Below, piece by piece: positions 2,849 through 27,247 of a stretch of DNA of 27,415 bases. The first letter of the stretch is position 1; every line of letters starts with the position of its first letter. The notes under the pieces were generated by a model that worked only from the letters and a program-made list of their open reading frames with translations, was not told the origin of the DNA and did not search any database. The DNA is from Roseburia sp. (GTDB lineage Bacteria > Bacillota_A > Clostridia > Lachnospirales > Lachnospiraceae): positions 1 through 27,415 of the forward strand of contig DXQT01000035.1 in assembly GCA_019411365.1 (NCBI GenBank), in the 5' to 3' direction. The position numbers and the translations under genes were made by a program.

Positions 2849-4576
2849 ATGAAATTAGAAAAATTAGTAGGTGACAGATTTAAGGAAAGACCGGCGGATT
2901 GTCAGGTAGACAGCCACGCACTTATGATCCGTGGTGGTTACATGAAGAATGTGGCAAACGGAATTTACTCTTCTTATATGCCACTCCGCAGAATTACAAG
3001 AAAGATCGAGCAGATCATCCGTGAGGAGATGGATGCGATTGATGGACAGGAAGTACAGTTCCCGGTTGTTATGCCGGCAAGTCTCTGGCAGGAGTCTGGC
3101 AGATACGACAGCATCGGAAAAGAACTTTTACGTTTTACAGACCGAAACGGAGCGCAGATGGTTCTTGGTATGACACATGAGGAGGCAGCCGTTCAGTTAG
3201 TAAGAGAATATGGACAGAGCTATGCAAAATACCCATTCATGATTTATCAGATCCAGACAAAATTCCGTGACGAGGCACGTCCAAGAGCAGGATTGATCCG
3301 TGTGCGTGAGTTTACCATGAAAGATGCTTATTCTTTCCACACAAGTCAGGAAGATTTAGAGCAGTACTATGATAAATGCCACAAAGCATATGAGAGAATC
3401 TATGCAAGAGCAGGTATCCCGGAGGTAGTTTCTGTAAAATCCGATTCCGGTATGATGGGCGGAAATGTTTCCCATGAGTTCATGCTTTTAACTCCAATCG
3501 GAGAGGATTCCATCGTAATCTGTAATGAGTGTGATTACCGTGCCAATATGGAAGCAGCCGAAAATATTGTAGAGAACGAGACAGAGGCTATGCAGGAACT
3601 TACCAAAGTTGCAACACCTGGCATGCATACGATTGAGCAGGTCTGTGAATTCTTACATGCAGATGCAAAGAAATCCATGAAAGCCGTTGTTTACCAGAGA
3701 AATTCCGATGACAAATATATTCTCATTTTTGTGCGTGGTGACCTCGAAATTAATGAGACAAAACTGACCAATTACCTTGGCTGCGATGTTCATCCGGCAG
3801 TGATCACAGAGGAGAGTGGCATTCAGACAGGATTTATCGGACCGGTGAACCAGAATGCAGACTGCATCGTTTTATTTGACCGTTCTTTAAAGGGAACAAC
3901 AAATCTTGTCTGCGGCGCCAATGAAGTGGATTATCATTACACAGGCCTGAATATGGAGCGCGAGTTCCCGGATGCAGAGTATGTTGATCTTGCAAAAGTT
4001 GTGGAGGGCGGTATCTGCCCATGCTGCGGTAAGAAATCACTGACCATTTCCCGTGGTATTGAGGTTGGTAACATCTTCCAGCTCGGAACGAAATACACCA
4101 AGACCATGAACATGACCTATGTGGACAAAGATGGCATAAGCAAAAATCCAATTATGGGTTGCTACGGTATCGGTGTCGGACGTATGGCAGCTTCCATTTG
4201 TGAAGCACATCATGATGATTATGGTCCAATCTGGCCAATGAGCATTGCTCCGTGGCAGGTTCACATCTGTGCGATGAACCTTGATAAAGAGGGTGTCAGG
4301 GAAGTAGCAGATACTTTATATGAGAATTTACAGAATGCCGGTGTGGAAGTGATCTATGATGACCGCTCCGTAAGTGCCGGAAATAAATTCTCCGATGCAG
4401 ACCTTTTAGGGGTTCCGGTTCGTGTTGTTGTGAGCCCACGTAACTTAAAAGAGTCTGTTGTGGAAGTTTCCACTCGTGACAAGAGCCTTATGGAGAAAGT
4501 TCCGGTAGAAAATGCCGAGCAGTATGTAAAAGACCTTGTAGAGAAAATGAAAAAAGAGTGTAATCTGGTAAAATAA
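2849..4576 (+). CDS. proS: Prolyl-tRNA synthetase (bacterial type, with editing domain)
   Basis: It charges tRNA-Pro with proline. At 575 aa it is the long bacterial form. A class II catalytic core (residues about 1-220) holds motif 2 in TKFRDEARPRAGLIRVREFT, followed by the KDAYSFH segment. An inserted YbaK-like editing domain spans roughly 230-390, motif 3 is GCYGIGVGRMAAS, and a C-terminal anticodon-binding domain (IAPWQVHICAMN onwards) follows. Paired cysteines CNEC and CPCC flank the insertion, as is common in this form. AAGGAG precedes the ATG. Expression is controlled by the upstream T-box. The stop codon touches the start of the next gene. Confidence 0.97.
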   Translation: MKLEKLVGDRFKERPADCQVDSHALMIRGGYMKNVANGIYSSYMPLRRITRKIEQIIREEMDAIDGQEVQFPVVMPASLWQESGRYDSIGKELLRFTDRNGAQMVLGMTHEEAAVQLVREYGQSYAKYPFMIYQIQTKFRDEARPRAGLIRVREFTMKDAYSFHTSQEDLEQYYDKCHKAYERIYARAGIPEVVSVKSDSGMMGGNVSHEFMLLTPIGEDSIVICNECDYRANMEAAENIVENETEAMQELTKVATPGMHTIEQVCEFLHADAKKSMKAVVYQRNSDDKYILIFVRGDLEINETKLTNYLGCDVHPAVITEESGIQTGFIGPVNQNADCIVLFDRSLKGTTNLVCGANEVDYHYTGLNMEREFPDAEYVDLAKVVEGGICPCCGKKSLTISRGIEVGNIFQLGTKYTKTMNMTYVDKDGISKNPIMGCYGIGVGRMAASICEAHHDDYGPIWPMSIAPWQVHICAMNLDKEGVREVADTLYENLQNAGVEVIYDDRSVSAGNKFSDADLLGVPVRVVVSPRNLKESVVEVSTRDKSLMEKVPVENAEQYVKDLVEKMKKECNLVK

Positions 4577-6126: not shown

Positions 6127-7398
6127 ATGGAGTCTGTTCTTGACCGTGTAATCAAGCAGAACACGGAAAATGTAAATTTATTAAAAACAAAAGATTACAA
6201 TATTTTTTCTGTTTTACAGATACAGTCAAAGGAAGTTCTGATCTGCCGCATGATAGCTGACCTTTTAAATCCGAGAGGGCAGCATGGCGCAGGGGCAGAG
6301 TACTTAAAAATTTTCTTGAGAGATTGTCTTGGAATGGAAAAAATGGATACAAAACTGGCAGATCAGGCAATTGTGACGGCAGAATATGCGATTGATGATG
6401 AGCGGAGAATCGACATTGTAATTGAAATTGGCAGCTATTTTCTTCCGATAGAAGTGAAAATATATGCGGCTGACCAGAAAAGCCAGTGCTTTGATTATTA
6501 TCAGTATGCAAAAAGAAGAGATGCGCAGGCGAAAGTGTATTATCTGACATTGGATGGACACAGACCGGGAAAAGACAGCACATCTTCCGGCAGCCAGTCA
6601 GTACCGGAGGAGGATATCGTCTGTCTCTCATTCCGTGAGCACATTTTAAACTGGCTGAAAGCATGTAAAAGTTGTGAAAATACAGGAATGGTTCCTATTT
6701 TGGAACAGTTTATCCAGAACATAGAACAAATCAGCGGTTATACAAGTGAGAAGGTGAGAAATATGGTAATTGATGAACTGCTTAAGTCGGGTGATTCCCT
6801 AAGAGCAGGGATGCAGATCGCAGATTCCATCAATGCTGCGAAAGCAAAGCTGATTTATCTGGTTTTCGAAGAGTTTGAAAAGCAGTTGGCAGGAGTGGCG
6901 GAAAGAAATCATTGGACGAGAGAGAAAAAAAGCAACTGGTATGAATATAAAGAACAGGCAGATGAATTTTTTTATAAATGGAACACTACCTATCCTGGAA
7001 TCAACTACATTGTAAATGATGCCCAGATGCCGGATGGAAAGCAGCTCTGGTTCCGTGTGGAGGTAGAACATCGTCTGTTCGCCGGATTCTGTGTCTTTGA
7101 TCCGAATGCAGAATCGGAGGAAGGACACGGGGATCAGGTGGATGAATACGATGCTGCAACTGTAAAAGCAGTCGGGCATTATCTGAAAATCAGTGCGGCA
7201 GACCACAAGGACTGGTGGGCAACCAGGTGGTATCTGCCAGCCGGAGAACAGAAGCCAAACGATTCTGTTCCGAACTTTAAAATCATGAATGATGCAGCGA
7301 TTGCACTGGCAGATAAAGAGTGCAGGTCGGAGTTTGTATCATTGTGTGTTCGTAACATTGAGGAGATGGTGGAGAGAGTGCTTGCTATTCCGGAATGA
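6127..7398 (+). CDS. PD-(D/E)XK nuclease-superfamily protein (PDDEXK_4-like)
   Basis: 423 aa, soluble. An N-terminal helical segment (residues 1-65, including LICRMIADLLNPRGQHG, typical of this family) is followed by a nuclease core: ERRIDIVIEI supplies Asp96, PIEVKI supplies Glu109 and Lys111, and Gln117 with FDYYQY follows. The catalytic set D-(x)n-ExK is thus intact. The C-terminal half (about 200-423) has no motif I recognise, with many Trp and Tyr residues. A GGGGAG Shine-Dalgarno lies about 9 nt before ATG. It is followed by two other PD-(D/E)XK proteins. A DNA nuclease role is inferred; many members are found near defence or mobile genes but few have been studied. Confidence 0.75.
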   Translation: MESVLDRVIKQNTENVNLLKTKDYNIFSVLQIQSKEVLICRMIADLLNPRGQHGAGAEYLKIFLRDCLGMEKMDTKLADQAIVTAEYAIDDERRIDIVIEIGSYFLPIEVKIYAADQKSQCFDYYQYAKRRDAQAKVYYLTLDGHRPGKDSTSSGSQSVPEEDIVCLSFREHILNWLKACKSCENTGMVPILEQFIQNIEQISGYTSEKVRNMVIDELLKSGDSLRAGMQIADSINAAKAKLIYLVFEEFEKQLAGVAERNHWTREKKSNWYEYKEQADEFFYKWNTTYPGINYIVNDAQMPDGKQLWFRVEVEHRLFAGFCVFDPNAESEEGHGDQVDEYDAATVKAVGHYLKISAADHKDWWATRWYLPAGEQKPNDSVPNFKIMNDAAIALADKECRSEFVSLCVRNIEEMVERVLAIPE

Positions 7399-13599: not shown

Positions 13600-15015
13600 A
13601 TGATTTTAAAGAAGAAAATTCCAAATGATTTTTATAAATTATTCCGCACAAAAAACAGGGAAGCATATATGCAGTTTGTCACAGCCATTTACGAGGAAAA
13701 CAATGAAGTATATGCTTCTCTCGGTCTTACGCAGGAAGAGTGTGCGCTTATTATTGAGAATACGATCGAGAAATCAAAGATCGTGTGGCAGGAAGAGGAC
13801 GATATGGAGGAAGGAGAAACGCCGGATGCATTATTTCCAAGCGATTCTCCTTCCGGCATGTTAAACCACCTGATCCGGTGGGGATGGCTGAAAAGTGATT
13901 TTGATGAGAAACTGAATACCTGTGTGATCTCTTTCCCGGAATACAGCCAGTTGTATGTCGAGTTGTTTAAAAAGCTGCAGAGTGATGATGACAGCCGGGA
14001 AAGAGAGAGCATGCTTTCCATTTACAGTGCGTTGTTTACTTATCATTCTGACAATGAAAAAAACAATGATATTTTAAAAAGCGCACTGCGCACATCCAAA
14101 AGTCTGGGGCAGCTGCTGTCCAACATGCAGGATGGAATGCGTTCTTATTTTGATGAGCTGTCCTCCCAGAAACATTTTATCGGGATTCAGCAGGTGCTTG
14201 TGGAGGAGATCAACAACAGTGACAGCAAAAAATATGCAATCCTCACGACGACGGACAGTTTTTACCGGTACAAGGAGGCAGTGAAAGAACTTATCAGTGA
14301 AATTTTAAACGAAAATGATGAGAAAAAAGCGGTGCTTCTGAAAGAAAAAAATTCTCTCGAAACAGGCACACTATTACAGAAGAGAAATGAGTACAGATTG
14401 CAGTATTGTGAGGATACGAGCAGGATCGTGATGCAGTTGGAGCGGGAATTTGACATGATTGAGCGCAAATACAATAAACTCATTGAGCAGAAAACCGTTT
14501 TTGCAAAGCGTGCGCTGGCCCGCATCCATTACATTTTGCAGGAGGGCGTCAGTGAGGAAGATAACATCATCAAACTGATCAATCTGTTAGACCGCAGTGA
14601 GAAAAAAGATGAGATTTTGGTGGAAATGAGAGAGCGTATCCGTTTTTCTTCGCAGTTTAAAAATATTACAGATAACAGTTTTGCTGGAAGAAGAGACCGC
14701 GGGGACGGAGCATTTGCACCGGTGATGCTGGACGAAGAAATAGACGCAAGGGAACAGCACATGACGGATTTTGTTCCAAAGCCGTTGTATACAAGAAACG
14801 AGTTACAGAGTTTCCGAAGAAAAAATACCGTGGATGGAGTCTTTGTGGCAACAGAAGAGACCGTACAGTCTGTGGAGGATCTGGAAAAACTTCTTTTCCT
14901 CTGGCAGGAAGAGACGGAGGAACGTCTGGCGGAAGATACGGTATCGGTGGACGGCGAGATACGGAGTGAGGACGGACTAACTTATTCGAGACTTGTGATC
15001 GGGCAGAATAAATAA
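13600..15015 (+). CDS. JetA-like (MukF/MksF-type kleisin) subunit
   Basis: 471 aa. Residues 1-165 (IPNDFYKLFRTKNREAYMQFV… LIRWGWLKSDFD) fit the N-terminal winged-helix part of JetA family proteins. The middle (about 175-310) is strongly helical and charged, consistent with the kleisin helical linker. The C-terminus (about 360-471, RNELQSFRRKNTVDG) is a tail without a motif I recognise. In known Wadjet/MksBEF systems this subunit bridges the SMC heads and binds JetB. It is the first gene of the operon: promoter at 13534, AAAGGAA 9 nt before ATG, and only 16 nt to the next gene. Assignment rests on gene order, length and character, and on the definite SMC-like third gene. Confidence 0.75.
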   Translation: MILKKKIPNDFYKLFRTKNREAYMQFVTAIYEENNEVYASLGLTQEECALIIENTIEKSKIVWQEEDDMEEGETPDALFPSDSPSGMLNHLIRWGWLKSDFDEKLNTCVISFPEYSQLYVELFKKLQSDDDSRERESMLSIYSALFTYHSDNEKNNDILKSALRTSKSLGQLLSNMQDGMRSYFDELSSQKHFIGIQQVLVEEINNSDSKKYAILTTTDSFYRYKEAVKELISEILNENDEKKAVLLKEKNSLETGTLLQKRNEYRLQYCEDTSRIVMQLEREFDMIERKYNKLIEQKTVFAKRALARIHYILQEGVSEEDNIIKLINLLDRSEKKDEILVEMRERIRFSSQFKNITDNSFAGRRDRGDGAFAPVMLDEEIDAREQHMTDFVPKPLYTRNELQSFRRKNTVDGVFVATEETVQSVEDLEKLLFLWQEETEERLAEDTVSVDGEIRSEDGLTYSRLVIGQNK

Positions 15016-15031
15016 AATTGCGTTACTATAC

Positions 15032-15679
15032 ATGAAAGAAGGCATTGGAAAAAAGATGTTACAATATATGGAGACTGTCTCACAGGGCGAGGCAGAAAAT
15101 ATCAGAAAAACGATACAGGATTTATTCCGGCAGACATGCATTTTACAGGTGAAATGTGACCCGGCAACTCTGGTACAGCACGACAATCCGAGGTATCAGG
15201 TGTGTCTGCGCCACAGAGAGTTTATCGCGGACTATCTGTCTGTGCTGGACTGCGAGCTTGTGCATGATCCGCAGGAACATATTTTCCGGATCACGGGGGA
15301 TGGCGTTATGACAGAGCGTATGAGCCTTATGACAACGAAGCTGGTCATTCTTTTAAAAATGATTTATCGTGACAAAATCATGGGGGAAGGTCTGCATGCA
15401 ACTACTACAAATCTGGCAGAGATCCGTGAGTATGGAAAAAATACAAACCTTATTACAAGACGTCTCACAGGACAGGAGTGGAACGATGCACTTGTTCTGA
15501 TGAAAACGCATCAGATGATCGAACTGCCGGGTGCCGTTGCCAATCTGGAAGATTTTACCCCGATTTATATTTACAGTACCGTAAACGTGTTCTGCTCTGC
15601 GATGGATATCAACGAGCTGGTGCGCACCTATCAGGACGAGGTGGAAGAACTTCTGACAGAAGAGGAAAAAGAGAATTAG
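15032..15679 (+). CDS. JetB-like (MukE/MksE-type, DUF4194) subunit
   Basis: 215 aa. It matches the MukE-like pattern of two winged helices: LVILLKMIYRDKIMGEG (about 108-124), then TNLITRRLTGQEWNDALVLMKTHQMIELPG, ending in IYIYSTVNVFCSAMD and an acidic tail. In Wadjet this subunit binds the kleisin. Start choice is uncertain: 15032 has no clear Shine-Dalgarno, and in-frame ATGs at 15056 (AGAAGG 13 nt upstream) and 15068 are alternatives that would shorten it by 8 or 12 residues. It lies between jetA- and jetC-like genes with short gaps, so the three proteins are made together. Confidence 0.75.
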   Translation: MKEGIGKKMLQYMETVSQGEAENIRKTIQDLFRQTCILQVKCDPATLVQHDNPRYQVCLRHREFIADYLSVLDCELVHDPQEHIFRITGDGVMTERMSLMTTKLVILLKMIYRDKIMGEGLHATTTNLAEIREYGKNTNLITRRLTGQEWNDALVLMKTHQMIELPGAVANLEDFTPIYIYSTVNVFCSAMDINELVRTYQDEVEELLTEEEKEN

Positions 15680-15704
15680 ATCATTGACAAAAGGAGCAGT
15701 ACAT

Positions 15705-18700
15705 TTGAGCCAGGCAAAGAAAATTTTCACCCGCATGTGTCTGAACAACTGGGGTGGAATTAATCATAAAGTATTAGAATTTAATGAATATGTGAATTTA
15801 TTCAGTGGAAAAAGCGGATCTGGAAAATCGACCGTTATGGATGCAATCCAGGTTATTTTATATGGAAGCTTCAGTCCGAGTTTTTTGAACAAGGCGGCGG
15901 ATGATGCCAAAAACCGCAGAAGTGTCTTAAGCTACCTCCGTGGTGAGCAGAAAGATGGTTCTGCAAACCGTGGAAACTGCGATTTCTGCTCGGTCATTGC
16001 GTTGGAGATCAAGGACACGGGAACGCACATCACTACGTGTGTGGGCATTGCGTTTGAAGTGAGAAGAAATGATTCTGAGATCAAAAAGTTTTCCTATTTC
16101 AGCCATTCCGGAAAGATGCCGGAACCGGGGTATATCACGGAGGAGGGCTTCTGTTATTCCAATCAGGATATCAAAAAGCTGGTAAATGAGAGAGCCGTAT
16201 CGAAGGATAACCGTGGAAAAGGGGATGTCAACCGTATTTACGCTTCCAAGGAAGCTTATCTTGGAACGTTATATGATGTCATTTTAGGTTACATTGATCC
16301 AAACCGTTTTATCACGATGGAAAAGAGTGCAATCGCACTGAAAATGACAAACGGAACAGGACAGTTTATCCGTGATTATATGTTTCCAAAGAGCACGTCA
16401 GACACGATCGGAACGATCAGTGAGCAGTTAGATGCCTACCGCCAGATCAAGGAAAAAATTGAGGATATGCGGAAACGTATCGAACTTTTGACAGACGTAA
16501 AAGAGACCGGGCAGGAGCTGGTGACGCTCCAGACCGATATGATCCGCACAGAGAGTTTTATCCGCTGCATTGATATTGAGGATCTCCGGGCGAAAATAGA
16601 GGCAGCCGAGGAGGACAAAAAAAGAATTGAAGAAGAGCAGGCACAGCTGCAGCAACAGGCAGACACGCTCGCCGAAGAGCGCGGAGAGGTCGAACAGGAG
16701 CTGATACGTGTAAGTGCAGATTTAAAAGCCAGCGATCTTGGAAACAAACAGCAGCAGTTAGAGGAATTAGAGGAAAGAAGCCGTATGCTGATCGATAACA
16801 GCAGACAGTGGCGCAAAATCGTTCAGGGATTGAAACAGTGGGAAGAGGACGAGGTCATCACCGATTATATCAGCAATCCGGTTCTAAATCTCATTGAAAC
16901 AATCGAAAATGGAAATGTGACAGAGGAAAACTGTCAGGAACTGCATTTGAAAATAGAGTCTGCAAAGCAGGATATTGAAAACGAATTTGAAGATTACAGT
17001 GAGCAGAAGCGCGAGACAGGAAAAGAACTGAAAGAAAAGCAGAAGCTTGTGGATGATATGAAAAACAATCGGAAATCCTACAGCGAGAATCTCCGTTCTG
17101 CAAGAAGTTCCCTGGAGCGGAAATTAAGCGACCTTTACGGAAGAACGATAAAAGTCCAGATTCTGGCGGATCTTTTTGATGTGGCAGACGAAGAGTGGAA
17201 AAATGCGGTCGAGGGCCGTATGGGAAGGCTGAAGTTTTCTCTGATCACAGAGCCAAAGTTTGCGCATGATGCGGCGGCGGTCTTTCGTGAGATGAAACAG
17301 TTTGAGGAAGTGGATCTCATTAATTCCAAAGCGATCGCAGACAGCGAGCCGCGTGCCATGGAGAACTCTCTTTATGAGGCGGTTGAGACGAAGGAAGCCT
17401 ATGTGGATGTGTGCCTGAAACGTTACCTCGGTCATATTATCAAGTGTCATTCCGTGGAAGAGTTAGAGCAGGTGAAGGACGGCGTGACACCGGATTGCTA
17501 TTCGTACAGTAATTTTATTTTCCGTCATCTGCGGAAAAAGGATTATACTACAAATGCCTGCATCGGAGAGAAAGTGTCAAAAGCACGTCTGGCAGAGTAC
17601 GAGGCCGATGTGGAGCGGCTTGAAAAACAGTATCAGGAACTGCATTACATGACCGAACGTTTAAAGGCGGCAAGGGATTTTGAAAGCCTGAAAGAAGAAT
17701 CTAAATATTATGTAAACCTTTCCGGCGCGGAAAAAGAGCTTGGAAAAGTCAACAAGAAAAAGACTGCGCTTGAGGAGACAATCCGCACTTTAAAAGAGGG
17801 GCAGTATAAGGAATTACAGCAAAAAGAGCAGAGTTTAAAACAGCAGATGCGTGAGCTTCAGGCTTCAATCGGCGAAAATCAGGGACAGATGAGTGAGAAA
17901 ATACGCCGACACGAAAATCTTTCCGGCGCAAATGACCAGCGTCGTCTGCAGTTAGAGGAGATGCTGCAGGGATACGTGCCAAATGAGGAGATCGAGCAGG
18001 AAGTGCAGGAGCAGTTGAGGAAGCGCTCCGGCCAGTCCTTAAAGAATCAGAAAAACGCAGAACTTGCAGCCCTTTCGGCAGGAGAGCAGGAGAAAGCCGA
18101 GACACTGCGCACCGCCAGAAACCGTTACATTTTTGCTTATCCGTCCAGCCAGTTTAACGGTTCAGAAAAGTCTAATGAAGCCTATGAGAAGCTTCTGGAA
18201 GAATATCAGACGGACTACGAGCCGGCGTATGAAGCGGAATTTGAGAAACAGTGTGATTTTATCTATAAGAGTCTGCGGGAGAATGTGATCGCAACGATTC
18301 ATGGAGATATCAAGGCGGCAAAACGTCATGCATACGAGATCAACCGTTTGCTGCGTGAGACGAACTTCTCCGACAGTACCTATCAGATCAAGATCGAGCC
18401 GGCAAAGAATGAGAATGGACAGTTCTTTGAGATGTTAATGGCAGAGGAATTAGACAGTAAAAATCTGGATAATGCCGGTTTTGATGGTCAGTTGAGCTTT
18501 GGGGAGGACACGTTCTATCAGAAATATGAGCAGAAGATCAAACTCCTCACTGATAAATTCATGCCGCCGAGAGACGAGGACGAGCAGGTGCGCGCAAAGA
18601 AGCGTCAGGAGATGGAGCAATACGCGGACTACCGCAATTATCTCTCCTTCAGCATGTTTGAACAGGTGACAGACGAGCAGGGGAATGTCATTCGTGAAAA

Positions 18701-19085
18701 TTTTGTCGATGATATGGCAGGAAGAGATTCCGGCGGAGAGGGGCAGAACCCGAAATATGTGGCACTTCTGGCAGGTTTTGCAATGCTGTACATGCAGCAG
18801 AGCAACCGGGATTCCAAGATCAAGCTGGTGCTCTTGGACGAGGCATTTTCTAAGATGGATCAGGAGCGAAGTGCTGTCTGCTTAAAATATGCAAGAAAAA
18901 TGGATCTTCAGCTCATTGTCTGTGTGCCGGATGAACGTCTGCAGTCGCTGATCCGCAATGTGGACTGTGTCTACGGATTCAGGCGTCATCAGAACCAGAT
19001 CTCCATGATGCATATTGATAAGGGAGATTATTTAAAACTGATGGAAGGTGAGCATGGACAGGGAGAGCCGGAAACTGTAAAATAG
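15705..19085 (+). CDS. JetC-like (MukB/MksB-type) SMC ATPase
   Basis: 1126 aa from a TTG at 15705, which has AAAGGAG 9 nt upstream. An earlier in-frame TTG at 15684 has no ribosome site and would add 7 residues. Walker A GKSGSGKST is at 35-43 (Lys41), the ABC signature SGGEGQ at 1009-1014 and Walker B KLVLLDEAFSKMD with Asp1045 and catalytic Glu1046, so the ATPase appears competent. Coiled-coil arms span about 265-480 and 620-800 (Gln/Glu/Lys-rich) around a hinge-like globular region at about 490-620 (VADEEWKNAVEGRMGRLKFSL). Known homologues load on DNA and extrude loops; in Wadjet they present plasmid DNA to JetD for cutting. No JetD gene follows: 32 nt later an unrelated dehydrogenase begins. 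Confidence 0.88.
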   Translation: MSQAKKIFTRMCLNNWGGINHKVLEFNEYVNLFSGKSGSGKSTVMDAIQVILYGSFSPSFLNKAADDAKNRRSVLSYLRGEQKDGSANRGNCDFCSVIALEIKDTGTHITTCVGIAFEVRRNDSEIKKFSYFSHSGKMPEPGYITEEGFCYSNQDIKKLVNERAVSKDNRGKGDVNRIYASKEAYLGTLYDVILGYIDPNRFITMEKSAIALKMTNGTGQFIRDYMFPKSTSDTIGTISEQLDAYRQIKEKIEDMRKRIELLTDVKETGQELVTLQTDMIRTESFIRCIDIEDLRAKIEAAEEDKKRIEEEQAQLQQQADTLAEERGEVEQELIRVSADLKASDLGNKQQQLEELEERSRMLIDNSRQWRKIVQGLKQWEEDEVITDYISNPVLNLIETIENGNVTEENCQELHLKIESAKQDIENEFEDYSEQKRETGKELKEKQKLVDDMKNNRKSYSENLRSARSSLERKLSDLYGRTIKVQILADLFDVADEEWKNAVEGRMGRLKFSLITEPKFAHDAAAVFREMKQFEEVDLINSKAIADSEPRAMENSLYEAVETKEAYVDVCLKRYLGHIIKCHSVEELEQVKDGVTPDCYSYSNFIFRHLRKKDYTTNACIGEKVSKARLAEYEADVERLEKQYQELHYMTERLKAARDFESLKEESKYYVNLSGAEKELGKVNKKKTALEETIRTLKEGQYKELQQKEQSLKQQMRELQASIGENQGQMSEKIRRHENLSGANDQRRLQLEEMLQGYVPNEEIEQEVQEQLRKRSGQSLKNQKNAELAALSAGEQEKAETLRTARNRYIFAYPSSQFNGSEKSNEAYEKLLEEYQTDYEPAYEAEFEKQCDFIYKSLRENVIATIHGDIKAAKRHAYEINRLLRETNFSDSTYQIKIEPAKNENGQFFEMLMAEELDSKNLDNAGFDGQLSFGEDTFYQKYEQKIKLLTDKFMPPRDEDEQVRAKKRQEMEQYADYRNYLSFSMFEQVTDEQGNVIRENFVDDMAGRDSGGEGQNPKYVALLAGFAMLYMQQSNRDSKIKLVLLDEAFSKMDQERSAVCLKYARKMDLQLIVCVPDERLQSLIRNVDCVYGFRRHQNQISMMHIDKGDYLKLMEGEHGQGEPETVK

Positions 19086-19117: not shown

Positions 19118-20176
19118 ATGCAGACAGGAAAAGGAATTTTAATACCATCTATATTAAAAGTTGGAAACGGCACTTTGAAGAAAATCGGACAGTATCTTAA
19201 GGCAGAGAATCTGGAACAGGTCGTGATCTTTTTCGGAAACGGACTGATCGACCTGTTTGGCATGGATGTCATGGATTCACTGAAACAGGAAGGAATCACG
19301 GTATTGGAGTACAGCGAGTTGGACACAGTCGATATCGATGATATTATCACGCTGGCATTTGCAATGCCGAATAAGACACAGGCCGTGATCTCAATCGGAG
19401 GGGGAAAAGTGATCGATGCAGGAAAATACGCAGCTTTTTTGCGCAATATTCCATTTATCAGTGTTCCCACTTCAAGTTCCAGTGATGGATTTTCCAGCGC
19501 AAGCGCGTCTCTTCTGGTGCATGGAAAAAGAACTTCCGTTCCGGCAAAGCTGGCATATGGAATTATTGTGGATACGCAGGTCATAAGGACTGCACCGGAT
19601 AAGTTTATCTATTCCGGTATTGGTGATATGATCTCAAAGATCACAGCGCTCTATGACTGGATTTTTGAGGAGAAAAGCGGATATTCAGAAGTGAATGATT
19701 TTGCGGTGATGATCGCAAAAAAGGCGGTGAACAGTTTTGTGAGGACGCCGTATGAGACGATAAAAGATGAACTGTTTTTGAAAGAACTGGTGGATTCGCT
19801 GGCAATGAGCGGAATCGCAAATGAAATTGCAGGAAGCAGTGCGCCGACAAGCGGCAGCGAGCATCTGATTTCCCATGCATTGGATAAAATATTAGAAGTT
19901 CCGCAGCTTCATGGTATCCAGGTCGGCATTGCAACTTATATTATGAGCAAAGTGCAGGATCACCGCTATGTGCGTGTTGAGACCGTACTCCGTGAAACGG
20001 GATTCTTTGACTATGCGGCGACACTTGGCATGAAGCGCGAAGATTTTATAAAAGCGATTGAGATGGCTCCGTCGATCAAACCATTCCGTCATACTTATCT
20101 CCATGAGGAATCATACCGGAAGCTTGCAAAGAAGATTGTTTTGGAGGATGAGGTGCTGCAGAAGGTTTTGGTGTAA
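19118..20176 (+). CDS. Glycerol-1-phosphate dehydrogenase-like protein (AraM/EgsA family)
   Basis: 352 aa, a metal-dependent dehydrogenase of the Fe-ADH superfamily, G1PDH branch. The nucleotide site is GGGKVIDAGKY (about 88-98). FISVPTSSSSDGFSSASASL and KRTSVPAKLAYGIIVDTQVI are near-signature for G1PDH. Metal ligands are expected at Asp in GIGDMISK, His in SGSEHLISHALD and His in LHGIQVGIA. Studied bacterial AraM makes sn-glycerol-1-phosphate from dihydroxyacetone phosphate with Ni2+ and NADH. GGGAGG stands about 9 nt before ATG. It starts 32 nt after the SMC gene in the same direction, in the place where a JetD gene would be expected. Read-through from the operon is likely; a functional link is not shown. 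Confidence 0.85.
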   Translation: MQTGKGILIPSILKVGNGTLKKIGQYLKAENLEQVVIFFGNGLIDLFGMDVMDSLKQEGITVLEYSELDTVDIDDIITLAFAMPNKTQAVISIGGGKVIDAGKYAAFLRNIPFISVPTSSSSDGFSSASASLLVHGKRTSVPAKLAYGIIVDTQVIRTAPDKFIYSGIGDMISKITALYDWIFEEKSGYSEVNDFAVMIAKKAVNSFVRTPYETIKDELFLKELVDSLAMSGIANEIAGSSAPTSGSEHLISHALDKILEVPQLHGIQVGIATYIMSKVQDHRYVRVETVLRETGFFDYAATLGMKREDFIKAIEMAPSIKPFRHTYLHEESYRKLAKKIVLEDEVLQKVLV

Positions 20177-20770: not shown

Positions 20771-21676
20771 ATGACACTTCAACAGTTAAAATATGCGTTG
20801 ACAATCGCCGACTGCGGCTCTATGAATGAGGCGGCAAAACAGCTTTTTATCTCACAGCCAAGTCTGTCAGAGACGATGAAGGAGCTTGAGACAGAGATAG
20901 GATTGGATATTTTTCTGCGTTCAAACCGTGGAATCGTCATCACGCCGGAGGGCGAAGAATTTTTGGGATATGCCAGACAGGTGACAGAGCAGTTCGGGCT
21001 GTTACAGTCCAAGTATATCGATAAAAAAGTAAAAGAGAAATTCAGCGTTTCCACACAGCATTATACGTTTGCGGTGAAAGCGTTTGTGGAGACGGTCAAA
21101 CAGATCGGTATGGAACAGTACGAATTTGCAGTGCATGAGACAACGACCATCAGTGTGATCGAGAATGTAAAAAACTTCAAGAGTGAGATTGGTGTACTCT
21201 ATGAGAATGATTTCAATGAGAAAGTCTTAAATAAAATGTTTAAGGAAAATGGGCTGGAATTTGTGGAGCTGTTTTCCTGCGATACATTTGTATACCTGTG
21301 GTCCGGACATCCGCTGGCAAAACAGGATGTGATCACAATGGAAGAACTGGATGAGTATCCGTGTCTTTCCTTTGACCAGGGAAAAAATAATTCCCTGTAT
21401 CTGGCGGAAGAGATGAAGAGCACCTATGAGTATAGGCGGCTGATCAAGGCAAATGACAGGGCAACACTCTTAAATCTGATGATCGGCCTGAATGCCTACA
21501 CGCTCTGCTCCGGTATTATCTGTGAAGATTTAAACGGTAACGATTATAAAGCAGTTCCGTTAAAGGAAACTGAGAAAATGAGAATCGGATATATCAAACG
21601 AAAAGGCGCAAAAGTCAGTCATATCGGGGAATTATACATTGAAGAATTGAAAAAGTATAAGGAAAAAGTAATGTAG
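20771..21676 (+). CDS. LysR-family transcriptional regulator
   Basis: 301 aa, full length. The N-terminal winged helix-turn-helix is MTLQQLKYALTIADCGSMNEAAKQLFISQPSLSETMKELE with FLRSNRGIVITPEGE. The effector domain runs from about 90 to 295 (FVYLWSGHPLA, YPCLSFDQGKNNS). The Shine-Dalgarno is AAAGGAAG. Downstream on the same strand lies metNIQ, and a palindrome typical of LysR operators lies just after the gene's stop, about 66 bp before the predicted metNIQ transcript start. Control of methionine or related sulfur-compound uptake is therefore inferred. The effector cannot be told from sequence. Confidence 0.9.
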   Translation: MTLQQLKYALTIADCGSMNEAAKQLFISQPSLSETMKELETEIGLDIFLRSNRGIVITPEGEEFLGYARQVTEQFGLLQSKYIDKKVKEKFSVSTQHYTFAVKAFVETVKQIGMEQYEFAVHETTTISVIENVKNFKSEIGVLYENDFNEKVLNKMFKENGLEFVELFSCDTFVYLWSGHPLAKQDVITMEELDEYPCLSFDQGKNNSLYLAEEMKSTYEYRRLIKANDRATLLNLMIGLNAYTLCSGIICEDLNGNDYKAVPLKETEKMRIGYIKRKGAKVSHIGELYIEELKKYKEKVM

Positions 21677-21715: not shown

Positions 21716-21745
21716 TTAACACATTTTAAAAACTCTTGCTATAAT
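21716..21745 (+). promoter_or_regulatory. Promoter of the leader peptide-metNIQ operon
   Basis: TTAACA (21716-21721), 18-bp spacer, TATAAT (21740-21745) preceded by TGC, an extended -10. This is the best promoter match in the window. Transcript start is predicted near 21752, giving a leader of about 343 nt before metN. Confidence 0.8.
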
Positions 21746-21774: not shown

Positions 21775-21843
21775 ATGGATCAGAACAGCAGGAGTTTTGT
21801 ATTTTCAAAAAGCAGAAGAAGCAGAAAGGAGAACCGGGAATGA
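21775..21843 (+). CDS. Possible 22-aa upstream ORF overlapping the Met/Cys leader peptide
   Basis: AAAGGGAG (21756-21763) precedes an ATG that opens a basic 22-residue frame (MDQNSRSFVFSKSRRSRKEN…). Its stop TGA overlaps the next start as ATGA (21840-21843). If translated, it would couple ribosome delivery to the leader peptide. It could also be chance, as an independent Shine-Dalgarno exists for the second frame. Confidence 0.3.
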   Translation: MDQNSRSFVFSKSRRSRKENRE

Positions 21844-21968
21844 GAACAGCTATTTTTCCTGAAAACGGCAGAAGAATGATGTCAGAAATGATGTGCATGT
21901 GCAGATGTATGTGTATGTTTTGTATGTGCTGCGGAAAAGAAAAATGTGCGCCAGATGTTTCGGTTTGA
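21840..21968 (+). CDS. Met/Cys-rich leader peptide of metNIQ (42 aa)
   Basis: The start has a textbook AAAGGAG (21825-21831), 8 nt away. The 42-residue product begins MRTAIFPENGRRMM. Residues 13-31 contain eight Met and seven Cys out of 19 (core MMCMCRCMCMFCMCC), and one more Cys is at 36. It ends 24 nt before an intrinsic terminator that precedes metN. This is the layout of a translation-dependent attenuator: shortage of charged tRNA-Met or tRNA-Cys would stall ribosomes in the run and should favour read-through into the methionine importer. The alternative, a small metal-binding peptide, is less likely given position and composition. A longer frame from 21744 begins inside the -10 box and is rejected. 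Confidence 0.7.
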   Translation: MRTAIFPENGRRMMSEMMCMCRCMCMFCMCCGKEKCAPDVSV

Positions 21969-21992
21969 ATTTTGCTTTTATAGATAGAGCAT

Positions 21993-22035
21993 AATAGACA
22001 GGAATCATCTTCGCGATGGAGCCTGTTATTTTTTT
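21993..22035 (+). terminator. Attenuator terminator before metN
   Basis: ACAGG (21998-22002) pairs with CCTGT (22022-22026), and inside it CATC with GATG closing a TTCGC loop. The base can extend by AAT/ATT with bulges, and seven T follow (22029-22035). It lies between the leader peptide and metN. A candidate competing pairing is TTCCTG (21856-21861) with CAGGAA (21999-22004), which would destroy the outer stem. Confidence 0.7.
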
Positions 22036-22094
22036 GTGTAACAGTCGTAAATAAAAATCAATAGGTTTTTGTTTTTGAAAAGAAAGGATTCGAT

Positions 22095-23138
22095 ATGTCT
22101 GAAATAGAAGTAAAACATTTGTCCAAGACATTTGAACAAAAGGGTGTTCATGTGGATGCCTTAAAGGATATTAACCTCACGATCGGGGCGGGCGATATTT
22201 ACGGGATCATTGGAATGTCCGGTGCAGGAAAAAGTACTTTGGTACGATGCCTGAACTTTTTGGAAAGACCGACCGACGGTCAGGTGTTGATCGAAGGAAA
22301 AGATCTTGGAACTTTAAATGAGAAAGAATTGAGAAAACAGAGAAGCGACATTGCGATGATCTTCCAGCATTTCAATCTTTTGATGCAGAAGAATGTGATC
22401 GACAATATCTGTTTCCCATTACAGATTCAGGGTGTTAAGAAAAAAGAGGCGAGAGCCAAAGCCAGAGAACTGTTAAAGACAGTCGGACTTGAGGAAAAAG
22501 AGAAGGCTTATCCGGCACAGCTCTCCGGTGGACAGAAGCAGCGTGTTGCCATTGCAAGAGCACTTGCATCCAACCCGAAAATACTTCTCTGTGACGAGGC
22601 GACCAGTGCACTTGATCCACAGACGACTGCTTCTATTTTGGAACTTTTGAAAAGCATCAATGAGCAGTTTCAGATCACGATCGTGATCATCACACACCAG
22701 ATGTCCGTGATCCGTGAAATCTGTAACCGGGTAGCGATCATTGAACATGGAGAACTGGTGGAAAACGGTCTGGTAGAAGATATTTTCAGCCATCCAAAGT
22801 CGAAGGCAGCCAGAGAACTGATTTTAAGAGATGTTCCTGAAAACAGTGGAAAAGCAGAGGGTGCAGTTGCAGCCCAGATGGAGAGGATCCAGGGAGATAA
22901 GAAGCTGCGTATTGTATTTACAGAAAATTCCGCATTTGAGCCGGTGATCGCTAATATGATCTTACAGTTTGGAAAACCGGTCAATATTTTAAGGGCAGAT
23001 ACAAAAAATGTCGGCGGTGTAGCCAAAGGCGAAATGATCTTAGGTCTGCCGGATGACAGACATCTTCAGATTGATATGGAACAGTATCTGACAGAACATG
23101 GACTTGAGATTGAGGAGGTGACAGGCGATGTGGAGTAG
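22095..23138 (+). CDS. metN: Methionine ABC transporter, ATP-binding protein
   Basis: A 347-aa cytoplasmic ATPase of the MetNIQ importer. Walker A GMSGAGKST is at 40-48, the Q-loop in IFQHFNLL, the signature LSGGQKQRVAIARAL, Walker B ILLCDEATSALD and the switch His in VIITHQM. The C-terminal NIL/ACT-like domain (about 265-345, LRIVFTENSAFEPVIANMI) is the part that binds methionine in the E. coli homologue and gives trans-inhibition. AAAGGA precedes the ATG. It overlaps metI by 11 nt. The leader carries the Met/Cys peptide and terminator, so expression probably responds to sulfur amino acid supply. Confidence 0.95.
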   Translation: MSEIEVKHLSKTFEQKGVHVDALKDINLTIGAGDIYGIIGMSGAGKSTLVRCLNFLERPTDGQVLIEGKDLGTLNEKELRKQRSDIAMIFQHFNLLMQKNVIDNICFPLQIQGVKKKEARAKARELLKTVGLEEKEKAYPAQLSGGQKQRVAIARALASNPKILLCDEATSALDPQTTASILELLKSINEQFQITIVIITHQMSVIREICNRVAIIEHGELVENGLVEDIFSHPKSKAARELILRDVPENSGKAEGAVAAQMERIQGDKKLRIVFTENSAFEPVIANMILQFGKPVNILRADTKNVGGVAKGEMILGLPDDRHLQIDMEQYLTEHGLEIEEVTGDVE

Positions 23139-23787
23139 TGAAGTGACAAATATGATTATTACCGGTATCTGGGAAACTCTTTATATGACATTAGTATCCA
23201 CATTGGTTGGTTATGTGATCGGACTTCCGATGGGAATTATCCTTACGGTATCAGACAAAGACGGGATTAAACCAAATGCAGTATTATATAAGATTTTAGA
23301 TGTGATCGCAAATATTGTGCGGAGTGTACCTTTTATCATTTTGCTTGTATTGCTGATCCCATTTACAAGATTAGTCGTAGGAAAGAGTTATGGTTCCACG
23401 GCAACAATCGTTCCACTTGTGATCGCAGCAGCACCATATATTGCCAGAATGGTTGAATCTTCTTTAAAAGAAGTAGATGCCGGTGTGATCGAGGCAGCAA
23501 GATCTATGGGAGCATCCAATTTTACAATTATTACAAAAGTAATGTTAGTGGAGGCAAGAACATCCCTTTTAGTGGGAGCAACGATTACATTGGGAACAAT
23601 CTTAGGTTATTCCGCAATGTCAGGAGCAGTTGGCGGCGGCGGTCTTGGTGCTATCGCGATCCGTTATGGATACACCAGATGGCAGACCGATATTATGATC
23701 GTCACAGTTATATTGTTGATTATCTTATTCCAGATATTCCAGACAGTTGGAATGAAACTGGCAGATAAGTTTGATCATAGAAAGTAA
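23128..23787 (+). CDS. metI: Methionine ABC transporter, permease
   Basis: A 219-aa inner-membrane subunit with five hydrophobic segments, the size and form of MetI. The EAA coupling motif is EAARSMGASNFTIITKVML starting at residue 122, followed by the GYSAMSGAVGGGGLGAIAIRYGY stretch typical of MetI. The start overlaps the end of metN with AGGAGG about 9 nt upstream, so translation is coupled. It forms the channel dimer with MetN and receives substrate from MetQ. Confidence 0.95.
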   Translation: MWSSEVTNMIITGIWETLYMTLVSTLVGYVIGLPMGIILTVSDKDGIKPNAVLYKILDVIANIVRSVPFIILLVLLIPFTRLVVGKSYGSTATIVPLVIAAAPYIARMVESSLKEVDAGVIEAARSMGASNFTIITKVMLVEARTSLLVGATITLGTILGYSAMSGAVGGGGLGAIAIRYGYTRWQTDIMIVTVILLIILFQIFQTVGMKLADKFDHRK

Positions 23788-23819: not shown

Positions 23820-24731
23820 ATGAAAAAAAGAGTATTATCAAGTATTTTAGCAGGAGTTTTAGCAGTCAGCGTATTTGCCGGATGCGGAAGCAAAACAGAA
23901 GACAACAGCCAGTCAGCAGCAGATAACAGCACAACACCTGCAACAGAAGCAGCCGCAGAAGAGTCTACAGAAGCAGCAGGCGGCACAGTAGAATCAAAAG
24001 GAACAATCACAGTTGCAGCATCTGCAACACCACACGCAGAGATCTTAGCAGCAGCAAAACCTATTTTAGCTGAGCAGGGATGGGACTTAGAGGTTACAGA
24101 GTTTGATGATTATGTATTACCAAACGAAGTTGTAGAGAGTGGCGAGATGGATGCAAACTACTTCCAGCACGTACCATATCTTGACAGTTTCAACGAGGAG
24201 AAGGGAACTCACTTAGTTGAAGTTGGAAAAATCCACTATGAGCCATTCGGAATTTATCCGGGAACAAAGAGCAGCTTAGATGATATCGCAGATGGCGATG
24301 TGATCGCAGTTCCAAACGATACCACAAACGAAGCACGTGCACTTTTATTATTACAGGATAACGGAATCATCACATTAAAAGACGGTGCAGGTTTAGAGGC
24401 AACTGTAAATGATATCGCTGAAAATCCTTACAATGTTGAAATTCAGGAGCTTGCAGCAGAATCCGTAGCAAGAGTTGCAGATGAAGTAGCATACGTTGTA
24501 TTAAATGGTAACTATGCATTACAGGCTGGTTTCTCTGTAGCAAAAGACGCACTTGCATATGAGAAATCTGATTCTGAAGCAGCAAAAACATATGTAAACG
24601 TTATTGTTGTAAAAGAGGGAAATGAGAACAACGAAGGTGTGAAAGCATTAGTTGATGTATTAAAATCCGATGAGATCAAGAAATTCATCAATGACACATA
24701 CGATGGAGCAGTTATTCCTTTCGAGGAGTAA
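23820..24731 (+). CDS. metQ: Methionine-binding lipoprotein (NlpA family)
   Basis: 303 aa. A lipoprotein signal peptide (MKKRVLSSIL…) ends at lipobox VFAGC, so Cys22 is lipidated after signal peptidase II cleavage. A Ser/Thr/Ala/Glu-rich linker (about 25-60) tethers the binding domain to the membrane surface. The NlpA domain follows with TPHAEIL, YVLPNEVVESGEMDANYFQHVPYL and IAVPNDTTNEARALLLL. A strong AAGGAGG lies before ATG, 32 nt after metI. NlpA proteins bind L- or D-methionine and sometimes other small amino acids; the Cys codons in the leader leave cystine or similar substrates open. Confidence 0.95.
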   Translation: MKKRVLSSILAGVLAVSVFAGCGSKTEDNSQSAADNSTTPATEAAAEESTEAAGGTVESKGTITVAASATPHAEILAAAKPILAEQGWDLEVTEFDDYVLPNEVVESGEMDANYFQHVPYLDSFNEEKGTHLVEVGKIHYEPFGIYPGTKSSLDDIADGDVIAVPNDTTNEARALLLLQDNGIITLKDGAGLEATVNDIAENPYNVEIQELAAESVARVADEVAYVVLNGNYALQAGFSVAKDALAYEKSDSEAAKTYVNVIVVKEGNENNEGVKALVDVLKSDEIKKFINDTYDGAVIPFEE

Positions 24732-26290: not shown

Positions 26291-27247
26291 ATGAAGACTG
26301 ATATCTTACAAATACACAAGAATTGCTTAGATTTCCTTTTGGACTGGCAAGCAGAACATGATGATTTTTATTTTGTTCCACGAAAGATTAACAATAAGAA
26401 GAGGCTTGAACAGGGAATGTATTTCCGTGGAAATGATGATTATATGGTTCTGACTTTCTGGGATAACGCAGACTCCAAGGAATTTATCTATAATATAAAT
26501 TGGAGTTGTGATTCTGATGGGGTATCTTCAATAGAGTTGTCCTGTAGAGATAATGCAGAGAGAGTTCCCTATGTAGTAGCCGTCAAAGAGTTAATTGAGG
26601 CGCAGGGAAAGGTATTTAAGGAAACAAAGCCAAATAGGTGGAGATATTTTTATCCAGCAGATAGGTATTACCTTGATACTTTGCAAGACTTCATTTTGAA
26701 TGAGAAGCCCATAATAGATAAATATTTGAGCAGCCATGTGGAAAGTGGAATCCCCCTTGCGGATAAAGAGCTGGACGATAAGTATGTGAAAGCACTGCCA
26801 GGGTATAAGGGATATATTGAAACAATCCAGACGGCAAAAAAGACAGGTGCAGTGAAAGTAAAAGCATCTGATTACATAATGACATTCCAACATAATGAGC
26901 TTTCAAATGCGATGGTTAATTATTTGAAGAAGAATGGCTATCAATACGTGAAAGCGGAGGACGATTATGTAGATATTTCTTGCAATGATTCTTCTGGGAA
27001 AAAGATATTCTTTGAATTGAAAACTGCAAAAACAGTAAAAGCAGCTATTAGAGAAGCCATGGGACAGCTATTGGAGTATAATCATTATCCTAACAATAAC
27101 AAGGCTGATAAGCTGATTATTGTTACGGCGCATGAACCAGAAAAAGAAGATATGCAGTATTTATTGGGATTGAGAACTATTTATCATATTCCTGTGTATT
27201 ATCAGCAGTTCGACATGAACAAAAAAAAATTATTGGCAGAGTGTTAG
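26291..27247 (+). CDS. PD-(D/E)XK nuclease-like protein, restriction-locus type
   Basis: 318 aa. The N-terminal part (1-190) is rich in aromatic residues (LDFLLDWQAEHDDFYFVPRK, GMYFRGNDDYMVLTFWDN) without a known domain. The C-terminal part has a nuclease core: DYVDIS with Asp228, FFELKTA with Glu242 and Lys244, then REAMGQLLEYNHY with Gln259, followed by KLIIVTAHEP and IYHIPVYY. The REAxGQLLEY signature is common in nuclease-like proteins beside restriction and defence genes. It lies 13 nt after the 120-aa unknown gene and is probably co-transcribed. The upstream site is a weak GTAGG. The role is unproven; the active site looks complete. Confidence 0.7.
   Translation: MKTDILQIHKNCLDFLLDWQAEHDDFYFVPRKINNKKRLEQGMYFRGNDDYMVLTFWDNADSKEFIYNINWSCDSDGVSSIELSCRDNAERVPYVVAVKELIEAQGKVFKETKPNRWRYFYPADRYYLDTLQDFILNEKPIIDKYLSSHVESGIPLADKELDDKYVKALPGYKGYIETIQTAKKTGAVKVKASDYIMTFQHNELSNAMVNYLKKNGYQYVKAEDDYVDISCNDSSGKKIFFELKTAKTVKAAIREAMGQLLEYNHYPNNNKADKLIIVTAHEPEKEDMQYLLGLRTIYHIPVYYQQFDMNKKKLLAEC

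Follow-up and report, generated by a model that had tools for sequence, protein, structure and literature searches.

Our analysis of a 27,415-nucleotide stretch of Roseburia sp. DNA (the window; contig DXQT01000035.1) confirmed that an open reading frame (ORF) rich in Met and Cys codons, followed by an intrinsic terminator, stands before the methionine-importer genes metNIQ. We consider it likely, at a probability of about 0.85, that this leader is a ribosome-mediated transcription attenuator sensing the supply of methionine and cysteine. The core of an earlier note on this DNA, that translation of the Met/Cys codons decides between termination and read-through into metNIQ, is supported by the computed features: an ORF, Shine-Dalgarno sequence and terminator whose architecture is conserved, mutually exclusive RNA pairings across the family of leaders, and codon-level selection on the ORF in one group. 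The mechanism is a known one and the design that of a classical attenuator; the proposed signal, methionine plus cysteine, and the lineage are new.

The leader and terminator before metNIQ

The elements of the locus, in order, are the following.

20771..21676, + strand, LysR-family regulator upstream of the leader, without a Met/Cys leader of its own
21716..21745, + strand, sigma-70-type promoter TTAACA-18-TATAAT with extended -10 (consensus match only)
21816..21840, + strand, segment 1, the leader's ribosome-binding region and protector, able to pair with the leader's 3' end
21825..21831, + strand, Shine-Dalgarno sequence AAAGGAG of the leader ORF
21840..21968, + strand, leader peptide ORF of 42 codons with stop TGA, kept in L031 and, in diverged form, in L032
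21876..21932, + strand, Met/Cys codon run, residues 13-31, the proposed stall region
21947..21980, + strand, segment 2, with the antiterminator 5' strand at 21947-21968 and the part pairing with segment 1 at 21957-21980
21995..22014, + strand, segment 3, the antiterminator 3' strand and also the terminator 5' arm
21997..22035, + strand, intrinsic terminator, stem 21997-22027 and T-run 22029-22035
22095..23138, + strand, metN, methionine ABC transporter ATPase with NIL domain (Pfam, NCBIfam)
23128..23787, + strand, metI, permease (Pfam BPD_transp_1; over the NCBIfam cut-off)
23820..24731, + strand, metQ, NlpA-family lipoprotein (Pfam NlpA lipoprotein)

The leader ORF translates as MRTAIFPENGRRMMSEMMCMCRCMCMFCMCCGKEKCAPDVSV. 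It was found, as the earlier note had described it, as a 42-codon frame led by a Shine-Dalgarno sequence between the promoter and metN, and a recount on the translation returned the same 15 Met or Cys among the 19 residues at positions 13-31. Met and Cys make up 14 of 18 residues at the densest, against 7 of 18 in the window's next small ORF. The promoter had been called strong; it matches the consensus at 11 of 12 positions and carries TG before the -10 element, but promoter-like sites are no commoner in this DNA than in shuffles (2 found against 2.5). The terminator does have the seven T claimed for it, preceded by an A on the 3' side of the stem, but starts 28 nt past the leader stop rather than 24. 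Its stem has a dG of -12.9 kcal/mol (z -2.7; 3 of 200 shuffles equally good), and a simple terminator pattern scan of the window did not list it. The identity of metNIQ was upheld by Pfam matches to the NIL domain, BPD_transp_1 and NlpA lipoprotein, and MetN and MetQ each drew the correct best NCBIfam model at scores below the cut-off.

Is metN also under one of the better-known RNA elements? As the earlier note had supposed, no SAM riboswitch or Met T-box was found there: an Rfam scan gave neither S-box (RF00162) nor T-box (RF00230) at the window metN, and the same search returned none in 20 leader-bearing metN loci and none in 20 other loci, among them the leader-bearing L038 and L059. Across the whole window Rfam matched a single element, a T-box at 2248-2528 (104 bits), 3' of which lies a gene (2849-4576) that is presumably proS. 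A single SAM-I riboswitch is present in 17 of 18 leader-bearing genomes. Downstream of it, the first ORF starts like metK, which we take it to be from its N-terminus, in 14 of these 17 loci; in the remaining 3 no ORF was found. TwoAYGGAY RNAs lie near metN in L034, L038 and L039 (96-141 bits). L038 has two of them, one placed between a Met/Cys leader with its terminator and metN.

Conservation of the leader in Lachnospiraceae

Roseburia inulinivorans DSM 16841 (L031) shares 98% identity with the window in MetN, and the leaders of the two differ by one synonymous change and by two that alter the peptide, of which one turns Cys into Ser. Compared with an uncultured relative (L032), the Met/Cys run has diverged and GCGnnAGATGnTTCGGTTTGA at the end of the ORF is retained, a retention that speaks neither for nor against single base pairs. 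A search of 60 genomes with the window leader peptide gave one clear match, G001. In a sample of 80 metN loci from named genomes, 21 carry a small ORF no more than 700 nt upstream of metN in which 7 or more of 20 residues are Met or Cys, including those of Coprococcus catus (L041), Sporofaciens musculi (L054), Hespellia stercorisuis (L098), Ohessyouella blattaphilus (L083) and L032. Five more loci (L094, L095, L099, L102 and L104) have such an ORF farther upstream, before a gene in which a family-3 solute-binding domain is fused to NlpA/MetQ (SBP-MetQ). Several Roseburia-labelled loci (L033, L034, L036, L037, L039 and L040) have no Met/Cys leader within 700 nt, and the leader therefore comes and goes within the genus.

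For a wider census, a MetN search at E up to 1e-80 covered 250 Lachnospiraceae genomes, almost all from different genera, and found 137 places in 123 of them. Five of these places were already in the sample and 12 were left out, giving 120 metN upstream regions from 119 genera. A region counted as positive if it held an ORF 15-60 codons long that was led by a Shine-Dalgarno sequence, contained 7 or more Met/Cys within 18 residues and had a terminator no more than 160 nt away. Conservation among the metN leaders of relatives, which the earlier note had named as a check on its proposal, was borne out: the sense strand gave positives in 37 of the 119 genera, the antisense strand in none, and the remaining 82 genera have no such leader by these criteria. 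The contrast holds at other thresholds (42 against 0 at 5 Met/Cys, 25 against 0 at 9), and the smaller number of eligible ORFs on the antisense strand (58, against 134 on the sense strand) cannot explain it. Among all 190 residue pairs, Met+Cys ranks first, with at least 8 of 18 residues in 33 of 120 loci and none antisense, ahead of Met+Asn with 23 loci. Taken singly, Met gives 30 sense against 0 antisense, and Cys 7 against 0. Five leaders from other loci (L001, L111, L113, L114 and L116, the last with a terminator judged by eye only) bring the total to 42 of 122 examined genera; many leaders are related, and these counts are partly non-independent. Judged from sequence, the window leader is not a one-off, and its architecture is conserved in many genera.

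We grouped the leaders into three sequence types. Type I, which includes the window, has the run MMMC..MCMMCMM and in most members a terminator core CAGGUA..UACCUG; type II has the motif MCMCCCRMLNSRA and type III the motif MQMNMxMMNGMMMCRM. The type I peptide profile (A1) matches few genomes (8 of 397 in the family and 1 of 243 in a sample of the class), and one peptide profile therefore cannot survey the device. Eight Dorea/Sporofaciens-type leaders have a pS of 0.222 against a pN of 0.076, which indicates that the leader ORF is under purifying selection in this one group; between L059 and L092 synonymous changes are hardly in excess, and other pairs are small. Twenty-two database proteins resemble type II leaders, and the two that are named are both called "hypothetical protein".

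Alternative pairings and a model for a proposed switch

The antiterminator of the window is best drawn as segment 2 with segment 3, 21947-21968 pairing with 21995-22014 (dG -12.9 to -14.6), its 5' strand ending at the leader stop codon. Taken alone, this pairing is little better than chance (15 of 200 shuffles equally good), and the exact pairing in the window is less certain. The family gives more. Pairing all RNA between the Met/Cys run and the terminator against the terminator's 5' arm, in comparison with dinucleotide shuffles, yields for the 37 census leaders a combined p of 7.5e-14, a value that spans related, non-independent leaders; 15 of the 37 are individually below 0.05. When terminators were permuted within each type, none of 5000 permutations was as good for type I (21 leaders) or for type II (13 leaders), and 284 of 5000 were as good for type III (18 leaders), in which the 2:3 pairing is weak. 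L115 and L178 do not fit their own terminators. Left out of these three-type tests, and of those on the 1:2 pairing below, were the census leaders L188, L209, L212 and L237, together with L031, L038, L044, L046, L047, L051, L054 and L107, which are near-duplicates except for L038. In a MAFFT alignment of 16 type I segments the terminator arms came out misaligned, and no count draws on it.

In type II the 2:3 pairing comprises 10 base pairs, CUCCCGGGCA with UGCCCGGGAG. Across 23 leaders picked by peptide motif, 206 of 230 positions form standard pairs, a number reached by 28 of 20000 permutations. Two-sided changes occur at pairs 6 (G-C to A-U in 4 leaders), 7, 8 (in 2) and 10, and five rows pair poorly, at 3 to 7 of 10 (L206, L222, L228, L230 and L282). 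For types I and II as groups, the predicted antiterminator and the terminator are mutually exclusive, and a ribosome completing the leader would cover the antiterminator. The earlier note had drawn a different antiterminator, TTCCTG (21856-21861) with CAGGAA (21999-22004), which fails, the segment 2 pairing being the better supported. TTCCTG is absent from the L031 leader (TTCCAG there) and from that of L032, and, being upstream of the Met/Cys run, it would be left free by stalled and finished ribosomes alike.

Segment 2 has a second partner. In the window, 21816-21840 pairs with 21957-21980 at a dG of -20.2, and this 1:2 duplex belongs to the minimum-energy fold of the whole leader. Under the same permutation scheme, 0 of 5000 were as good for type I, 0 of 5000 for type II and 19 of 5000 for type III. 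In L101 the protector pairing extends through the start codon, and L078 has, by eye, a G-C pair where L101 has A-U. As the 1:2 duplex is stronger than 2:3, stalling may not free segment 2 unless another ribosome occupies the ribosome-binding site. Folding for alternative structures, a further check put forward in the earlier note, gave mutually exclusive pairings conserved across the family.

We also folded leaders as if a ribosome were present, assuming that its footprint blocks the RNA as far as 13 nt beyond the codon in the A site. In the type II leaders L099 and L156, in which the last Cys of the run is codon 17, the terminator probability is 0.00 through codon 17 and 0.98-1.00 from codon 19. 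In the window, most stalls at codons 8-34 are expected to give 12-13 antiterminator pairs as long as the 3' arm has not been made, and a ribosome at codons 40-43 to give none. At equilibrium the terminator wins most stalls, with probabilities of 0.54-0.74 at codons 28-32 (lowest, 0.54, at codon 31) and mostly higher values elsewhere, and the window switch must therefore be kinetic. By the same modeling, L101, L202 and L241 would likewise need a kinetic reading; in the type III leader L202, the stop precedes segment 2, which a terminating ribosome leaves unmasked.

From these features we infer a transcription start, actual translation of the leader, stalling, read-through and the molecules sensed, and we propose the following model. 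The signal would be the charging of elongator tRNA-Met and tRNA-Cys. RNA polymerase would depart from the promoter at 21716-21745, and a ribosome would load at the leader's Shine-Dalgarno sequence. When methionine and cysteine are both ample, the ribosome would reach the stop at 21966-21968, at the end of segment 2, and cover that segment, leaving segment 3 free to form the terminator, and transcription would end near 22035. When either amino acid is short, the ribosome would stall within 21876-21932 and leave segment 2 free to pair with segment 3 once the latter is transcribed; the terminator would then not form, and metNIQ would be transcribed. If the leader were untranslated, the ribosome-binding region (segment 1) would pair with segment 2, giving the terminator by default.

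What else might the small ORF be? It could encode a functional Met/Cys-rich small protein, concerned with metals or redox and made from the operon's leading gene, the terminator behind it being an ordinary internal one. Met/Cys motifs can bind soft metals, and the purifying selection seen in one group would suit such a protein. Yet the order, spacing, length and Met:Cys ratio of the run vary by type while the run itself persists, and what is conserved outside the run falls on RNA pairing segments, CUCCCGGGCA for example lying inside RMLNSRA. The Met share of Met+Cys in the runs, moreover, tracks the downstream gene, at 0.77 in type III (n=17), 0.69 in type I (n=14), 0.48 in type II (n=13) and 0.47 in the leaders of metY (n=7). 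Nor does the window peptide (P0001) match any Pfam or NCBIfam family; the members of A1, A5 and A6 have none either, apart from one chance-like match (E 0.012) in 1 of 17 A5 members. We therefore regard a small-protein function as very improbable.

Control could also be exerted at the promoter by the neighboring LysR protein, the leader and terminator being incidental or setting a basal level only. A LysR gene does lie directly upstream in the window and in several leaderless Roseburia loci, but leaders occur as well where the upstream gene is not LysR (cysK-like in L101 and L107, others in L041 and L098), and terminators with matching antiterminators would be unexpected under such control, which we consider highly unlikely as the sole explanation; LysR control and leader attenuation could coexist as layers. 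Least likely of all, in our estimate, is that the leader governs the translation of metN or the stability of its mRNA rather than premature termination. Met/Cys ORFs adjacent to cysK in L058, L061 and L072 show no terminator, as such coupling would allow; against it, the window has a terminator separating leader from metN, as do all 37 census loci (the scan required one), and the pairing of segment 3 involves the terminator arm rather than the metN ribosome-binding site. Transcription attenuation by the translating ribosome remains our preferred reading.

A possible sulfur amino-acid regulon and its relation to known leaders

Met/Cys leaders are found before other genes too. Type II leaders precede metY-like ORFs, which start like the metY of L271, in 12 loci (L271, L275, L277, L280, L281, L283, L284, L285, L286, L315, L318 and L319). 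Only L271 was run against models, scoring over the cut-off of TIGR01326, and a terminator scan of the L283 and L286 leaders found none. Further type II leaders stand before a Cys/Met PLP enzyme in L268 (best models cystathionine gamma-lyase/synthase, below the NCBIfam cut-offs), before a MetN paralogue in L289 (below cut-off) and before an ORF that is cysK-like by sequence likeness in L321. In L279, a type II leader at 1477-1587 precedes a glycyl radical enzyme like (2S)-3-sulfopropanediol dehydratase, of which the 439 residues available match at 711 bits against a cut-off of 1000 for the full protein; this leader would link sulfonate use with sulfur amino-acid supply. On the reverse strand of L118 there are two Met/Cys leaders (101-226 and 1468-1596), one before metN and one before a LysR homologue, which, unlike the window LysR, thus has its own. 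Beyond Lachnospiraceae, two further families of the order have genomes with leader-like profile matches (L316, L318, L319 and L323); that of L318 is weak, and L320 was not confirmed as a leader. In the profile searches for further leaders, one-by-one inspection covered matches with E up to about 0.01.

Two observations stand beside these. In L099, the gene at 1222-2919 joins a family-3 amino-acid-binding domain and NlpA/MetQ in one lipoprotein, and 3' of it lie metN, metI and polar amino-acid permease genes. The small ORFs before cysK (L058 1760-1843, L061 1695-1820 and L072 1713-1844), in which no terminator was seen, may be under another mode of control.

The Met/Cys leaders probably form a regulon. 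Somewhat more tentatively, we favor a sulfur amino-acid regulon of Lachnospirales in which leader-peptide attenuators would act on metNIQ, SBP-MetQ transporters, metY, cystathionine gamma-synthase/lyase, cysK, the sulfonate-cleaving glycyl radical enzyme and LysR, with a Met:Cys ratio tuned to each gene and a SAM riboswitch reserved for metK alone.

How does this device relate to known ones? The trp and his attenuators of E. coli comprise four segments, with a protector (1:2), an antiterminator (2:3) and a terminator (3:4). The window leader shares this logic with them; there is no sequence relation, and the amino acids and the phylum differ. SAM-I riboswitches and T-boxes resemble it as RNA leaders controlling methionine genes in Firmicutes, but are absent at the leader-bearing metN loci scanned. 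Mycobacterial poly-Cys uORFs reportedly, going by a 2020 title of Canestrari, are leaderless and without a Shine-Dalgarno sequence. The window leader falls outside that class, having a Shine-Dalgarno sequence and a mixed Met+Cys run. In the excerpts available, poly-cysteine uORFs are described before cys operons of mycobacteria and relatives, with no conserved terminator, and the methionine operons of Actinobacteria as having no conserved RNA regulatory structures (PMC1262725). As far as that partial text goes, the likeness lies in runs of Cys codons before sulfur genes, whereas the actinobacterial uORFs are Cys-only and the leaders described here are led by Shine-Dalgarno sequences, mix Met with Cys and have intrinsic terminators.

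The earlier note took leader-peptide attenuation to be mainly proteobacterial. Excerpts of three papers describe Firmicutes cases, namely His leader peptides that replace T-boxes before hisS/hisZ in bacilli (PMC2965389), Rli60 of Listeria, an attenuator for branched-chain amino acids (PMC5864092), and the ilv-leu leader peptide of S. aureus (PMC5794164), so that this part of the claim falls, and the Met+Cys specificity and the Lachnospiraceae setting stand. On the same partial texts, Rli60 and ilv-leu share with the window a short, Shine-Dalgarno-led ORF rich in the regulatory amino acid, a terminator with an antiterminator, and an importer or biosynthesis operon downstream in Firmicutes; they belong to Bacilli and to branched-chain amino acids, whereas the leaders described here concern Met plus Cys and many operons of Lachnospirales. 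The bacilli His leaders are likewise, in the excerpt, regular leader peptides in place of T-boxes in Firmicutes, but concern histidine and aminoacyl-tRNA synthetase genes. The open-access literature, which leaves subscription papers mostly uncovered, yielded no account of leader-peptide attenuation by methionine, none of Met/Cys leaders from Clostridia and none of a Met/Cys leader regulon of such scale.

If the regulon reading is true, methionine-codon attenuators, and a dual-amino-acid sulfur sensor of the leader-peptide type, would be known for the first time. The attenuator itself would add methionine and the combined Met+Cys signal to the short list read by leader-peptide attenuation. The device would be placed in gut Clostridia, and would explain how Lachnospiraceae control sulfur amino-acid uptake with neither S-box nor T-box at metN. 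Does the Met:Cys codon ratio set the response of each operon, and why should SAM be sensed for metK and aminoacyl-tRNA for import?

Elsewhere, the window contains a Wadjet-type JetA, JetB and JetC set at 13600-19085 (774, 387 and 1489 bits, PADLOC); the ORF that follows at 19118-20176 gave no JetD with the PADLOC library. Two further candidate defense proteins are a match to the PDC-S26 model at 6127-7398 (223 bits) and a partial match to PtuA1 at 26291-27247 (52.5 bits).
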